Shown here in pieces: positions 15,520 to 44,697 of a stretch of DNA of 64,000 nucleotides; the stretch's first letter is position 1, and every line of letters begins with the position of its first letter. The translations under genes and the position numbers were made by a program. The stretch is from Bacilli bacterium. Lineage in GTDB: Bacteria > Bacillota_I > Bacilli_A > RF39 > UBA660. Location of the stretch: positions 62,001 through 126,000 of the forward strand of contig JAFZKH010000007.1 in NCBI GenBank assembly GCA_017553685.1, written 5' to 3'. The notes beneath the pieces are model-generated. The model was given only the letters and a program-made list of their open reading frames with translations. It was not told where the DNA came from and made no database searches.

Positions 15520-16257
15520 ATGGAAATAACTAAAGTAAGAGGAATAGTTGCAGGAGAAAAACCATATAATGAAACAAGTAAACTTGTTTATGTTATTACT
15601 AAAGAATATGGTTATATATCTTTAATTGCTAAAGGAGCAAAATCTCTAAAAAGTAAACTTAGATCTATAACTACTAAACTTAGTTACTGTGACTTTCAAA
15701 TTAATTATAAAGAAGGAAAATTAAGTACTTTAATAGATGGAGATATAGTTAATAATTATAATAATATTAAATCTGATTTAGTTAGAATTAGTTATGCTTC
15801 ATATTTAGTAGAATTAACTACTCAAGTTATGAAAGAAAACTATAATGAAAAGATATTTGATTTATTAGCTAGTATTCTAGATAAAATGGAATCTGGTTTA
15901 GAACCTAAATGTTTAACTAATATACTAGAACTTAAATATTTATCTTATTTAGGTATTAGTCCCGAATTAAATGAATGCTCTATATGTGGTAATAAAAAAG
16001 TAATTACATTATCTACTGAAAAAGGTGGATTTATTTGTTCTAATCATCATACTAATGAAAAGATAGTAGATCCTAAAACATTAAAAATGATTAGGCTTTT
16101 ATATTACATAGATATAGATAAAATAACTAAAATAGATGTGTCTGATAAAGTACAAAGAGAAATTGATGAATTTATAATAGAATACTATGATAGATATTCT
16201 GGTATGTATTTAAATACTAAAAAGTTTTTAAATAAGATTAAAAATGTATACATTTAA
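15520..16257 (+). CDS. recO: DNA repair protein RecO
   Basis: RecO works with RecF/RecR to load RecA at gaps. The 245-residue product opens with an OB-fold (VRGIVAGEKPYNETSKLVYVITKEYG) and has a helical middle. Its C-terminal zinc-binding site shows CSICG and a later CSNHH, fitting the four-cysteine type with the last ligand changed to His. It starts one base after the era stop; no strong separate ribosome-binding site is seen, so translation is probably coupled. It ends just before the promoter of the glycine T-box. Confidence 0.92.
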   Translation: MEITKVRGIVAGEKPYNETSKLVYVITKEYGYISLIAKGAKSLKSKLRSITTKLSYCDFQINYKEGKLSTLIDGDIVNNYNNIKSDLVRISYASYLVELTTQVMKENYNEKIFDLLASILDKMESGLEPKCLTNILELKYLSYLGISPELNECSICGNKKVITLSTEKGGFICSNHHTNEKIVDPKTLKMIRLLYYIDIDKITKIDVSDKVQREIDEFIIEYYDRYSGMYLNTKKFLNKIKNVYI

Positions 16258-16265
16258 ATTATTTG

Positions 16266-16274
16266 TGATATAAT
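16266..16274 (+). promoter_or_regulatory. Extended -10 promoter of glyS leader
   Basis: The string TGATATAAT gives a full -10 with a TG extension. No convincing -35 is visible 16-18 bases upstream. The predicted transcript start is near 16281. Confidence 0.7.
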
Positions 16275-16280
16275 TTAATT

Positions 16281-16411
16281 GTATAAGAAAAGCGATGACT
16301 AGGGTTGGAATCCTAAGAGCTATATAATATAAAGATGATTCTAATAGAATAAGTAAGGTGGAACCGCGGTAATAATCGTCCTTACATTTAGTAGAATTAT
16401 CTTTTTTTCTT
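16281..16411 (+). promoter_or_regulatory. Glycine T-box riboswitch with ultrashort Stem I
   Basis: The T-box core AAGGTGGAACCGCGG lies at 16355-16369. The variable base in UGGAACC is A, which pairs with the U73 discriminator of tRNA-Gly. Stem I is only 31 bases (16291-16321): a basal AGC/GCT, a GATGA...GAG kink-turn-like element, a 4-bp TAGG/CCTA helix and an 8-base loop with GGA at 16307-16309. The distal AG-bulge and T-loop part of Stem I is missing. A Stem III hairpin (ATTCT AAT AGAAT) follows. A U-tract at 16402 follows TAGAATTATC, which can pair with GATGATTCTA at 16334-16343. Downstream is glyS. Confidence 0.88.
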
Positions 16412-16426
16412 AATAAGGAGGAATTT

Positions 16427-17800
16427 ATGGAAGAAGTAAAAATGGAAAAGATTGTTAATTACTGCAAACAATATGGTTTTGTATTCCCAGGAAGTGATAT
16501 TTATGATGGATTTGCTAATACTTGGGATTTTGGACCACTTGGAGTAGAACTTAAAAACAATGTTAAAAAATGTTGGTGGAAGAGATTTGTTCAAGAAGAT
16601 AAAGATACTTATGGAGTAGATGCTGGTATTTTAATGAATCCAAGAGTTTGGGAAGCATCAGGACATGTTGCATCTTTCTCAGATCCTAAAATGGATTGTA
16701 AAAAATGTAAACAAAGATTTAGAGCAGATAATTTAATTGAAGAATTCTCTAAAGGAGAAGTAGCTGCTGAAGGTATGACTAATGAAGAGATGGAAAAATA
16801 TATTGAAGACAATAATATTAAATGCCCTCATTGTGGATCTCATGATTGGTCTGAAATCAAACAATTTAAATTAATGTTTGAAACAAGTAGAGGTACAGTT
16901 GAAGGAAATAAAGATACTGTTTATTTAAGACCTGAAACATGTCAAGGAGAATATGTTAATTTCTTAAATGTGCAAAGAACTACTAGAGCTAAAGTGCCAT
17001 TTGCTATAGCTCAAATAGGTAAGTCATTTAGAAATGAAATTACTCCAGGTAATTTCTTATTTAGAACTATAGAATTTGAACAAATGGAACTTCAAAAGTT
17101 CTGCAAAGATACTGATTCTATGGATATATATAATAACTATAAAGAAAGAGCATTAGAATTTGTTAAAGACATGGGATTAGATCCTGATAAATTAAGATTT
17201 CATGATCATGATAAGTTAGCTCACTATGCTAAAGCTGCATGTGATATTCAATATAAATTTCCAATAGGATGGGAAGAACTTAACGGTATACATCATAGAG
17301 GAACTTGGGATTTATCTAGACACACTGAATTTAGTGGTAAATCACTAGAATACTTAGATCCTGAAACTAATGAAAAATATATACCTACAGTTATTGAGTA
17401 TTCTATTGGTGCAGATAGATTAACTCTTGCTTTATTATGTAATTCTTATGAAGAACAAACATTAGAAAATGGTGAAACTAGAGAAGTAATGCATTTATTA
17501 CCAGCTTTAGCACCATATAAAGCATGCATTTTACCATTAATTAAGAAAAGTCATAGTGATAAAGCTCTAGAAGTATTTAATACATTATCTAAATACTTTA
17601 TGGTTTCATATGATGAATCTGGTTCTATTGGTAAAAGATATAGAAGAAATGACGCCATTGGAACACCATTCTCTATTACAATAGATGATGAAACACTTAA
17701 TAATAATACAGTAACTATTAGAGATAGAGATACTATGGAACAAATTACATTACCTCTAGACGAAGTAGTAGACTATATAAATAAAAAGATACAATTTTAG
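16427..17800 (+). CDS. glyS: Glycyl-tRNA synthetase, homodimeric type
   Basis: This is the class II alpha2-type GlyRS that charges tRNA-Gly, unrelated to the bacterial GlyQ/GlyS alpha2beta2 enzyme. Motifs include GFANTWDFGPLGVELK near the N-terminus, FRNEITPGNFLFRTIEFEQM (motif 2 region) and a C-terminal anticodon-binding domain from about residue 360. A CxxC...CxxC pair lies around residues 88-145. The 457-residue length is typical. AAGGAGG precedes ATG 16427 by five bases. It is controlled by the glycine T-box directly upstream and ends in its own terminator. Confidence 0.97.
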   Translation: MEEVKMEKIVNYCKQYGFVFPGSDIYDGFANTWDFGPLGVELKNNVKKCWWKRFVQEDKDTYGVDAGILMNPRVWEASGHVASFSDPKMDCKKCKQRFRADNLIEEFSKGEVAAEGMTNEEMEKYIEDNNIKCPHCGSHDWSEIKQFKLMFETSRGTVEGNKDTVYLRPETCQGEYVNFLNVQRTTRAKVPFAIAQIGKSFRNEITPGNFLFRTIEFEQMELQKFCKDTDSMDIYNNYKERALEFVKDMGLDPDKLRFHDHDKLAHYAKAACDIQYKFPIGWEELNGIHHRGTWDLSRHTEFSGKSLEYLDPETNEKYIPTVIEYSIGADRLTLALLCNSYEEQTLENGETREVMHLLPALAPYKACILPLIKKSHSDKALEVFNTLSKYFMVSYDESGSIGKRYRRNDAIGTPFSITIDDETLNNNTVTIRDRDTMEQITLPLDEVVDYINKKIQF

Positions 17801-18345: not shown

Positions 18346-18696
18346 ATGAATAAGTTCAAAAAGAGCCTATTTGGATATAATACAAAAGAAGTAAATGCCT
18401 TTATAGATGATATTATTAAAAATGTAGAAAAAATAATTAAATCTAATAAAGAAAAAACTAATAAGATTCAGAAATTAGAAAATGAAATTACTTATTTGAA
18501 GAAATATCCAAATAATAATTTAGTTAAAAGTGAAGAAGAACTAAGTAAAACACTTAGTGATAGTATTCTTTTGACTAAAAATACTACTAAAACTATCCAA
18601 AAGGTAGAAGATGAAAGAATTAATATAATAAAAGAGAAGTTAGAAAAAACAATTGAAGAACAAAAGAGACTTCTTGAAGAATTAGATAAAAAATAA
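18346..18696 (+). CDS. divIVA: DivIVA-domain protein
   Basis: DivIVA proteins sense curved membrane at poles and septa and organise division. The 116-residue product opens MNKFKKSLFGYNTKEVNAFID, matching the DivIVA N-terminal signature, and continues as a coiled coil (residues about 25-116). This is shorter than typical DivIVA, so a GpsB-like role is possible. The ATG at 18346 is preferred over the upstream in-frame start at 18310, because the domain begins exactly there and GGAAG lies upstream. It is placed between sepF and the T-box of ileS, as in many Bacillota. Confidence 0.85.
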   Translation: MNKFKKSLFGYNTKEVNAFIDDIIKNVEKIIKSNKEKTNKIQKLENEITYLKKYPNNNLVKSEEELSKTLSDSILLTKNTTKTIQKVEDERINIIKEKLEKTIEEQKRLLEELDKK

Positions 18697-18698
18697 AT

Positions 18699-18901
18699 GA
18701 TGAAGACGAATATTTATAGATGTTTTTAGAGAGTTACTGTTTGGTGAAAAGTAATAGCTATATAAATATTAGATCACTTCTGATATCCTTATTTAAGTTA
18801 ATAGAATGAGGCGTTAAACGCGTTAAGTAATTAAGAGCATAGATATCTATGAAGTAAGGTGGTACCGCTATTATTAGTCCTTACATCATAGATATTTTTT
18901 T
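18699..18901 (+). promoter_or_regulatory. Isoleucine T-box riboswitch
   Basis: The T-box AAGGTGGTACCGC is at 18856-18868. UGGUACC fits the A73 discriminator. A long Stem I is present: AATATTTATAG pairs with CTATATAAATATT, the distal loop reads GTTTGGTG and the AGAGAG element is present. The specifier ATC (Ile) is at 18773-18775, followed by A and CTTC, which pairs with GAAG at the base. CATAGATATCTATG, a perfect palindrome just before the T-box, forms Stem III. Its 3' half also pairs with CATAGATAT (18887-18895) before the U-run to make the terminator. No clear separate promoter is seen, so it may be read from the sepF-divIVA transcript. Confidence 0.93.
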
Positions 18902-22756: not shown

Positions 22757-23878
22757 ATGAAGAAAAAGATTGAAAAAGAGGATGAAATTAAATATTATGG
22801 CACTAAAGTATTAAAAATATTATTATTTTTATTATTTATCATAGCTATTTATGCCATTTTATTAATTAATAAACAATTAGGATTAACTAAGATAATATGG
22901 AGAATATTAACTGTTATATCGCCACTTTTCTTTGGTGTTTTAATAGCTTATATATTAAATCCTTTAATTACTAGAATGTCTAAAGGTAAACTTAATAGAT
23001 TTATATCTACTAGTATAGTTTATCTAGTAATAATAGGTATTATTTATTTAATTGGAGCTTATTTAATACCATCTCTTGGTAAAGAAATAGCAGAATTATT
23101 TAAATATGTTCCAAATGTATTTAATACAGTAACTGAATCTATTACTAGTTTATTTAAAAAATTAAACTTTAGTGAATCATTTTCAAGTACATTAATTAAA
23201 TCAATTAAGACATTTGGTACTAATTATGTAAATACTGTTACTACAACTATTCCTGATCATGCTATATCATTTACAACTAAATTAGTTTCTAGAATAGGAA
23301 CAATATTAATTAGTTTAATTATTAGTTTCTATCTATTAATAGATTTTGATAGAGCAGCAGATTATATTTATATATTTGTTCCTAAAAAGTATAAAGAAGG
23401 AACACATAAATTATTAACTACTATATCTGAACAAGTATTCTCATTTGTAAAAGGTACTGGTTTAATTGCTATACTTGTATTTATAGTATCATGTATAGCA
23501 TTTATGGTATCTGGTTTAAAAGGTGCTGTATTCTTTGCATTATGGAATGCAGTAACTAATATTATTCCATATATAGGACCATGGATTGGTGGTATTCCAA
23601 TAGTAGTATTTGCATTTGCTACAGACTTTAGACTTGGTATTATAGTATTAATAATTGTTATAGTTATTCAAGTACTAGAAAGTTATATACTTCATCCAAT
23701 AGTAATGAGTAAGACTATGAAACTTCATCCAGTAACAATAATAATTAGTTTATTGATATTTGGACACTTCTTTGGTATAATAGGAATGCTTTTAGCAACA
23801 CCTATTGTAGCTATTTTAAAAACAATAGTAATTTACTTAAATGATAGGTATAAAATTACAGAAAGATTAACAAAATAA
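22757..23878 (+). CDS. AI-2E (PerM/YtvI) family transporter
   Basis: The 373-residue polytopic membrane protein has an N-terminal pair of hydrophobic segments (about residues 15-40 and 48-70), another near 85-105, and a cluster of four to five near 180-340. The family-specific blocks are visible: ISPLFFGVLIAYILNP, SFVKGTGLIAILVFIVSCIAF and WNAVTNIIPYIGPWIGGIP, and the C-terminal GHFFGIIGMLLATPIVAIL. Members export signalling molecules or act as Na+/H+ antiporters, and the substrate cannot be read from sequence. It lies just upstream of the alanine T-box and has its own TATAAT at 22727-22732. Confidence 0.9.
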   Translation: MKKKIEKEDEIKYYGTKVLKILLFLLFIIAIYAILLINKQLGLTKIIWRILTVISPLFFGVLIAYILNPLITRMSKGKLNRFISTSIVYLVIIGIIYLIGAYLIPSLGKEIAELFKYVPNVFNTVTESITSLFKKLNFSESFSSTLIKSIKTFGTNYVNTVTTTIPDHAISFTTKLVSRIGTILISLIISFYLLIDFDRAADYIYIFVPKKYKEGTHKLLTTISEQVFSFVKGTGLIAILVFIVSCIAFMVSGLKGAVFFALWNAVTNIIPYIGPWIGGIPIVVFAFATDFRLGIIVLIIVIVIQVLESYILHPIVMSKTMKLHPVTIIISLLIFGHFFGIIGMLLATPIVAILKTIVIYLNDRYKITERLTK

Positions 23879-23884
23879 TATAAT

Positions 23885-24068
23885 AGAAAAGTAATTAATT
23901 ATTAATTTAAAGAGAGTTAGTGGTTGGTGTAAACTAATAATTATAATTAATGAAAGCTACTATTATTAATGCATGAAAACATGCCGGGTATCCGTTATAA
24001 TAATTAAGTAAAACAAAGGATGGTACCGCCTTAAGGCTCCTTACAAAAGGAATACCATCTTTTTTTGG
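23885..24068 (+). promoter_or_regulatory. Alanine T-box riboswitch
   Basis: T-box AAAGGATGGTACCGCC is at 24015-24030. Stem I is full length: AATTAATTAT pairs with ATTATAATTAAT, and AGAGAG plus GGTTGGTG lie in its distal part. The specifier GCT (Ala) is at 23956-23958, followed by A. Two small hairpins follow (GCATG...CATGC and CGG...CCG). The terminator pairs GATGGTA (24019-24025) with TACCATC (24053-24059) before seven T residues, so it directly hides the tRNA acceptor-binding bulge. A TATAAT box lies at 23879-23884. It controls cmk, alaS and probably mltG. Confidence 0.93.
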
Positions 24069-24077
24069 AGGTAAAAT

Positions 24078-43779: not shown

Positions 43780-44697
43780 ATGAGTGTAGAAGATATTATA
43801 CAAACACATGGTTATAATGAAGATATAGCTAATTATCTTAGAAAAGTATATCCATTATATGTAGAAGAATTTAAAAATGAAGTAATTGTATATAATGCTC
43901 TAATGAAAACCCCAATAGTATTATGTGATAATGTATATGAATGCCTAAAAGAACATGGCCACCTAGATGATAGAGAAGATAATGAAATGGTTCCATTAGA
44001 AACATTAAAAGTATCTTCAGGTGTATATGATTGTTCAGTAAAACTATCATATAATGAATTATCAAAAGAATATACAATAGTAAATGAAGATAGAATAGTA
44101 GCAATAAATGCATATTCTTTAAAATTAGATAGTAAAAAAAGTACAACTAGTCATGAACTAGGTCACTTAATAAAAGCATTATTTAATGAACATATTATTA
44201 AAGGTGATACTTTAATTGAAAGATCTGGTTTAATTACTAGAATATATCAATTATCACATGAAAATGGTAAAGTAAAGAAGACTCTTTGGAGTGAAACTGG
44301 TGTTGGACTAGAAGAAGGTTTAAATACAGTCTTAGAAGAAAGAATAATGTCTAGATTACTTGAAAAAGGGTTTGAATCATTGGGTTATCAAACAATGAAA
44401 GGACTAGCACTTAAAGTAATGAATGCATATAATATTCCTGATTTATGGGAGATATTTAAAGAAGCAGAACTATATCATGATAATTCAAGAATAGATAGTG
44501 TATTAGGAAATGTATTTTATGAATTAATTGAATTTGCTGATAAATTATATCCACTAAATGTTGAATTATTAAATATGAATACATCAAGTGAAAGACAAGA
44601 TGAAGTAAAGAAAGAAATGATTGAATTAATTAATGCAGAATATGCGCCAATATCAGAAAAATTAAAATCTATAGGACAAGGTTCTATAGAAATGTAA
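43780..44697 (+). CDS. HExxH putative metalloprotein, first gene under valine T-box
   Basis: The 305-residue protein is cytoplasmic, with no signal peptide or membrane segment. A zinc-protease motif HELGH lies near residue 125, followed about 45 residues later by ETGVGLEEGLNTVLEE, a typical position for the third glutamate ligand. These make a gluzincin-like metallopeptidase plausible, though the rest matches no family I know. AAAGGAGG lies before ATG 43780. valS follows 15 bases later with its own ribosome-binding site. Control by valine-tRNA charging implies a role tied to translation or amino-acid supply, perhaps peptide recycling. Confidence 0.7.
   Translation: MSVEDIIQTHGYNEDIANYLRKVYPLYVEEFKNEVIVYNALMKTPIVLCDNVYECLKEHGHLDDREDNEMVPLETLKVSSGVYDCSVKLSYNELSKEYTIVNEDRIVAINAYSLKLDSKKSTTSHELGHLIKALFNEHIIKGDTLIERSGLITRIYQLSHENGKVKKTLWSETGVGLEEGLNTVLEERIMSRLLEKGFESLGYQTMKGLALKVMNAYNIPDLWEIFKEAELYHDNSRIDSVLGNVFYELIEFADKLYPLNVELLNMNTSSERQDEVKKEMIELINAEYAPISEKLKSIGQGSIEM

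Follow-up and report, generated by a model that had tools for sequence, protein, structure and literature searches.

A glycine T-box leader with a single-hairpin Stem I, no Stem II and a terminator strand complementary to Stem III in one family of Bacilli

Layout of the glyS leader

The window, a 64,000-nucleotide stretch of contig JAFZKH010000007.1 from the Bacilli bacterium assembly GCA_017553685.1, carries a glycine T-box at 16281-16411 in the leader of glyS (Table 1). The leader measures about 125 nt through the end of its U-tract and folds more stably than shuffled sequences (z = -2.3). Upstream lies recO, with its stop at 16257, and the extended -10 box of the predicted promoter ends 7 nt before position 16281.

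Table 1. Features of the glyS leader, and the ileS T-box downstream, in window coordinates
Feature	Position	Strand	Details and basis
Promoter	16247-16274	+	TATACA (-35), 16-nt spacer, extended -10 TGATATAAT at 16266-16274; predicted start about 16281
Stem I base, 5' strand	16291-16293	+	AGC; folds
Kink-turn, 5' strand	16294-16298	+	GAUGA, partner GA at 16317-16318; sequence and conservation
Stem I specifier hairpin	16300-16315	+	UAGG 16300-16303, 8-nt loop GUUGGAAU, CCUA 16312-16315; covariation
Specifier codon	16307-16309	+	GGA (Gly) in apical loop, pairs with anticodon UCC; always a Gly codon in relatives, tRNA-Gly(UCC) in genome
Stem I base, 3' strand	16319-16321	+	GCU, end of Stem I; folds
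Linker in place of Stem II	16322-16332	+	11 nt, single-stranded, A/U-rich; no structure in folds
Terminator, 5' strand	16331-16343	+	AAAGAUGAUUCUA, overlaps Stem III; duplex energies, folds
Purine string	16333-16337	+	AGAUG (RRRxG), 5' of Stem III; fits the RRRxG-Stem III-AA motif (PMC7583486)
Stem III	16338-16350	+	AUUCU-AAU-AGAAU, then AA at 16351-16352; folds; 5' strand doubles as terminator 5' strand
Helix A1, 5' strand	16353-16358	+	GUAAGG; 3' strand CCUUAC at 16380-16385; fold
T-box bulge	16359-16365	+	UGGAACC; UGGA pairs with tRNA U73-CCA; sequence, U73 in both tRNA-Gly genes
Helix A2	16366-16379	+	GCGGU/AUCGU, terminal G-U pair; fold
Terminator, 3' strand	16392-16404	+	UAGAAUUAUCUUU, runs into U-tract; duplex energies, folds
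U-tract	16402-16408	+	Seven U
Shine-Dalgarno	16415-16421	+	AAGGAGG; read from sequence; outside both structures
glyS	16427-17800	+	Dimeric-type glycyl-tRNA synthetase; NCBIfam NF003211, 623 bits
ileS T-box (Ile)	18688-18901	+	Stem III 18838-18851; terminator 3' strand UCAUAGAUAU 18886-18895; U-tract from 18896; Stem-III-type

The T-box core, consisting of helix A1, the 7-nt UGGNACC bulge and helix A2, is present at 16353-16385. The leader has the RRRxG-Stem III-AA string and, at A2, a terminal G-U pair, both listed as features of functional discriminators (PMC7583486). Folds of the linker at 16322-16332 contained no Stem II, and the distance between Stem I and Stem III is similarly short in relatives (13-17 nt in 57 of 64 leaders). 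The genome encodes tRNA-Gly(UCC) and tRNA-Gly(GCC), both ending in U73-CCA. GGA can form Watson-Crick pairs with the whole of UCC, and UGGA with U73-CCA, so that the variable position of the bulge (the A of UGGA) matches the discriminator base of its cognate tRNA. In the remaining T-boxes read in the window and genome, UGGU takes the place of UGGA. A preliminary description of the window, made from the sequence alone, had called the core intact and its UGGAACC a match to U73, and the two tRNA-Gly genes agree with this.

Stem I as a single covarying hairpin

Stem I is a single 31-nt hairpin (16291-16321), as read from the sequence and recovered in folds, neither of which contains an elbow-binding distal part or interdigitated T-loop motif (IDTM). 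The preliminary description had reported the same form, with about 31 bases, a kink-turn base, a 4-bp helix, GGA in the terminal loop and no distal part stacking on the tRNA elbow, and had suggested covariation analysis across related genomes as a check. By a protein search with glycyl-tRNA synthetase followed by reading of the upstream DNA, we collected 65 distinct leaders of this mini form, which come from many genera of the same bacterial family. Because helix lengths vary among these leaders, automatic alignment misplaced the codon loop, and Stem I statistics were taken from an anchored parse of all 65 leaders and from a subset of 13 leaders of equal length.

In the anchored parse, 86% of the cells of the Stem I helix are paired, compared with 57% when arms are exchanged (maximum 64% in 1,000 permutations; here and below, permutation values overstate independence since the 65 leaders are related members of one family), and 44 distinct helices occur among the 65 leaders. 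The equal-length subset has 96.2% paired cells, 23 of them doubly changed, with compensatory change in all four helix pairs; its score is 0.80 against 0.27 for shuffled leaders, none of 500 shuffles was as good, and arms slid against each other pair in at most 42% of cells. This covariation rules out a hairpin formed by chance. The loop codon specifies glycine in every leader (59 GGA, 3 GGC, 2 GGG and 1 GGU), in answer to the concern of the preliminary description that close relatives might lack a conserved GGA loop, and the kink-turn motif G[CU]GA[UA]GA .. [GUC]AGC is kept in nearly all 65.

We considered whether a longer transcript from an upstream promoter could bring a normal Stem I, a concern that the preliminary description had also raised. 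Transcription could run on from the era-recO genes in this genome, but the sequence 5' of Stem I is taken up by the promoter and then by recO coding sequence, leaving no space for a longer form. In other genomes the genes upstream of the leader differ, a -10-like box (at most one mismatch) near Stem I is present in 94% of related leaders against 77% in shuffles, and Stem I is in itself a closed, covarying hairpin. A longer transcript of this kind is thus extremely improbable.

Loss of the motifs reported to augment tRNA binding, together with loss of Stem III in some relatives, could also indicate a T-box in decay, one that has ceased to sense tRNA and provides only a constant level of termination. 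Against such decay, the codon, the kink-turn, the bulge with its U73-matching A and the Stem I helix are kept across many genera, the last of these under compensatory change, and we regard this explanation as quite unlikely.

A predicted terminator built on Stem III

In published accounts, the terminator forms from the 3' strands of A1 and A2 (PMC7583486). The 3' strand of the glyS terminator instead finds its complement in the Stem III strand, which lies 5' of the T-box, and pairing between them leaves the antiterminator helices intact. In effect it duplicates the 3' arm of Stem III, as strand exchange would predict. Across the 65 leaders, the 3' strand pairs with its own Stem III region at a mean of -13.3 kcal/mol, compared with -9.2 with the strands of other leaders and -5.0 with shuffled ones, and Stem III is the preferred partner in every leader. 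The complementarity is maintained as the sequence changes: for the 41 leaders whose Stem III is not of the majority type, matched pairing was better than in any of 20,000 permutations (p ≤ 5e-5). Examples of such Stem III/terminator pairs are GAUUCUUCAA/UUGAAGAAUC (L118), GAUUCUAUUAG/CUAAUAGAGUC (L142) and UGAUUCUUAUUUUA/UAAAAUAAGAAUCA (L164).

Minimum-energy folds of the full-length leaders contain the Stem III terminator in 64 of 65 cases and keep A1 in 64, the sole exception being a leader with a misplaced U-tract. When the window leader is cut at 16385-16395, it folds as Stem I, Stem III and A1/A2; when it ends at 16400-16404, the minimum-energy structure has become the terminator, in which A1/A2 persist (-16.4 to -27.7 kcal/mol). 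In shortened transcripts of all 65 leaders, Stem III and A1 each appear in the minimum-energy structure of only 50. Four of the 65 leaders (L159, L160, L167 and L220) have lost the Stem III hairpin and retain the terminator pairing at the same place.

The canonical terminator, with its 5' strand taken from the 3' strands of A1/A2, was rejected as a candidate. An ordinary class II glycine T-box of the Bacillus subtilis glyQS type with a canonical terminator, in which Stem I has merely been shortened, would share the glycine specificity and the absence of Stem II (PMC10482949), and glycine T-boxes with a long Stem I persist in the family (see below). Pairing between the T-box 3' strand and the downstream strand, however, has a mean energy of -3.7 kcal/mol, no better than the -3.8 of shuffled sequences, and none of the 65 leaders folds in this way, which makes the class II explanation very unlikely.

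Translational class III ileS T-boxes typically combine a short Stem I with a specifier in the apical loop (PMC10482949), and the leader could by analogy act on translation. This too is highly improbable: seven U follow directly after a helix with conserved, covarying pairing, the Shine-Dalgarno sequence takes part in neither structure, and Stem II, which class III requires, is absent. The covariation, the glycine codon and the terminator pairing instead support a glycine T-box that acts on transcription and has an ultrashort Stem I, a minimal form, as the preliminary description had proposed. That account was right about the U-tract and the glyS gene that follows it, but the terminator pairs with Stem III and not with the T-box 3' strand; the absence of Stem II, the use of Stem III by the terminator and the spread of the form through the family had been overlooked.

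Other T-boxes in the window, genome and family

The window contains three further T-boxes, specific for isoleucine (at 18688, codon AUC, ahead of ileS), alanine (23875, GCU, cmk-alaS) and valine (43531, GUA, ahead of an unknown gene and then valS). All three have a full-length Stem I, as previously described, and match Rfam RF00230 over the full model (121, 106 and 78 bits). Loss of the long Stem I is thus particular to the glyS leader within this genome, as the preliminary description had it, but not beyond: the mini form is found family-wide. The gene following the valine T-box (43780-44697) is a 305-aa open reading frame without an NCBIfam match.

The ileS T-box and four others in the genome have Stem-III-type terminators in which the partner is the 3' arm of Stem III, such that A1 is simply extended; the T-box of the valS operon and one more are canonical. 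The alanine T-box (23875-24070) lacks a clear Stem III. Its terminator seems to use the T-box as pairing partner (GAUGGUA with UACCAUC, ahead of the U-tract), which is a third geometry; L384, L441, L451 and L458 are similar cases.

Terminator types were assigned by a fold-based classifier; on inspection by eye, its Stem-III calls for L363, L367 and L384 look mistaken, and probably also that for L394. Of 63 non-glycine T-boxes classified from other genera of the family, about a third are of the Stem-III type (22 called, some of them wrong by eye). The preference for matched over swapped strands recurs here, with -11.0 versus -5.0 kcal/mol across 25 leaders (p ≤ 5e-5). Outside the family, terminators are canonical in 54 of 56 T-boxes; L394 is doubtful and L466 (genome G493) is clearly of the Stem-III type, with GUCUUCA/UGAAGAC before the U-tract. 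The Stem-III platform is thus rare outside the family, not unique to it. Separately, L345 (genome G468) is a T-box directly 5' of a methionyl-tRNA synthetase gene (a metG-like open reading frame), with a canonical terminator.

Phylogenetic distribution of the mini form

With a covariance model that leaves out the terminator, we recovered the element in roughly 208 of the order's 288 genomes (E < 1e-8; counted by hand). The model used (R1) was built from the automatic alignment and does not include Stem III. Among 392 genomes sampled at the phylum level, all listed ones belonging to the same class, every match of at least 67 bits lies inside the family, and the best two outside it (55 and 52 bits) are T-boxes with a long Stem I. 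The weak R1 matches outside the family (below about 56 bits) are ordinary long-Stem-I T-boxes by eye, where they could be parsed at the T-box core. One family member (G036) has a leader identical to that on contig CACYFN010000010.1, which is labelled 'uncultured Erysipelotrichaceae'.

Rfam RF00230 scores the window's glyS leader at 38 bits (E = 7e-5), short of its cut-off of 93, with the 5' part misaligned and only the core matched. It matches 17 of 20 relatives at 34-48 bits and the remaining three not at all. These low scores arise because the model expects a full Stem I, and since RF00230 misses the mini leaders at its curated cut-off, T-boxes of this form have probably been under-counted.

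A long Stem I persists in three of the family's glyS leaders (L151, L214 and L346), with distal AGUGA / UAGUGAAA loops resembling an IDTM, and by eye their terminators are of the Stem-III type. Stem I was thus probably trimmed at the specifier loop within this lineage, starting from a class II ancestor. In some relatives, several hundred bases to 1.5 kb, including another gene, separate the glycine T-box from glyS (L137; genomes G042, G049, G120 and G198).

Predicted mechanism and relation to known T-box classes

The glyS leader is very probably a transcription-attenuating glycine T-box pared down to the minimum, in which tRNA is sensed and Stem III is invaded by the terminator strand. As read from sequence comparison and predicted folds, the kink-turned mini Stem I would offer its loop GGA to the anticodon of tRNA-Gly(UCC) while the leader is being synthesized. 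Stem III and A1/A2 would fold next, and the UGGA bulge could then pair with an uncharged U73-CCA end. Uncharged tRNA-Gly bound in this way would hold Stem III and A1/A2 together with the tRNA 3' end as a single unit and so prevent invasion, allowing readthrough into glyS. If tRNA is absent or carries glycine, the 13 nt transcribed next (16392-16404) would invade Stem III by pairing with its 5' strand, and the resulting terminator helix, enclosing the still-folded A1/A2 and followed by seven U, would stop transcription. The discriminator depends on Stem III to hold the end of the tRNA (PMC7583486); with a terminator that takes a Stem III strand and spares A1/A2, the predicted competition would be with Stem III itself. 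Since its contacts to tRNA are just two and short, such an RNA may bind weakly.

Of the four described T-box classes, I and II have a long Stem I and III and IV a short or intermediate one, and class III requires Stem II; the 2023 paper that gives these classes attributes stronger tRNA binding to the Stem I IDTM, to Stem II or to the two combined (PMC10482949). Transcriptional T-boxes generally need the IDTM according to a review (PMC7583486), and TBDB mentions T-boxes with a truncated Stem I (PMC7778990). Compared with class II (B. subtilis glyQS), the glyS leader shares glycine specificity, the kink-turn at the base of Stem I, a linker in place of Stem II, transcriptional output, the discriminator of Stem III and A1/A2, and a UGGA bulge for U73; it differs in having no distal Stem I or IDTM, in carrying the codon in an apical rather than an internal loop, and in a terminator that uses a Stem III strand and not the T-box 3' strand. 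Class III (actinobacterial; Nocardia farcinica ileS) has a similar short Stem I without IDTM, an apical-loop codon and a kink-turn, but it possesses and requires Stem II (with its S-turn), is isoleucine-specific in its type case and is mostly translational, whereas the glyS leader has no Stem II, is specific for glycine and has a terminator. Class I (B. subtilis tyrS; in this genome ileS and valS) shares the discriminator and transcriptional output, and this genome's ileS shares the Stem-III terminator, while class I differs in its long Stem I with IDTM, its Stem II and its pseudoknot.

The glyS leader is a combination of the class III Stem I with the class II absence of Stem II, and thus has neither avidity motif of the four published classes. 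In a literature search that covered part of the comparative T-box genomics papers, we found no description of a form with neither avidity motif or of a Stem-III terminator. We think it likely, with less confidence than for the attenuation mechanism, that these leaders represent a fifth T-box architecture, in which tRNA would be read only through the codon-anticodon and 3'-end contacts, without IDTM or Stem II, and the terminator strand would invade Stem III while the antiterminator helices stay folded, on a platform common in one lineage and used with several amino-acid specificities. An element that lacks both IDTM and Stem II and is yet conserved across many genera tests how much RNA is needed at minimum to read a tRNA in the brief interval before a terminator, and its size would make it a convenient minimal model. 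The Stem-III terminator would be a second way to wire a T-box, with Stem III serving as the breakable part of the sensor.

A separate ultrashort form occurs in glycine T-boxes of 'uncultured Clostridia' metagenome-assembled genomes (L035, L036 and L039), which likewise have a short Stem I with a loop codon (GGC) and lie upstream of glyS, but differ from the leaders described here in that additional sequence or hairpins separate Stem I from the T-box and the terminator is, by eye, a canonical one from the T-box 3' strand.
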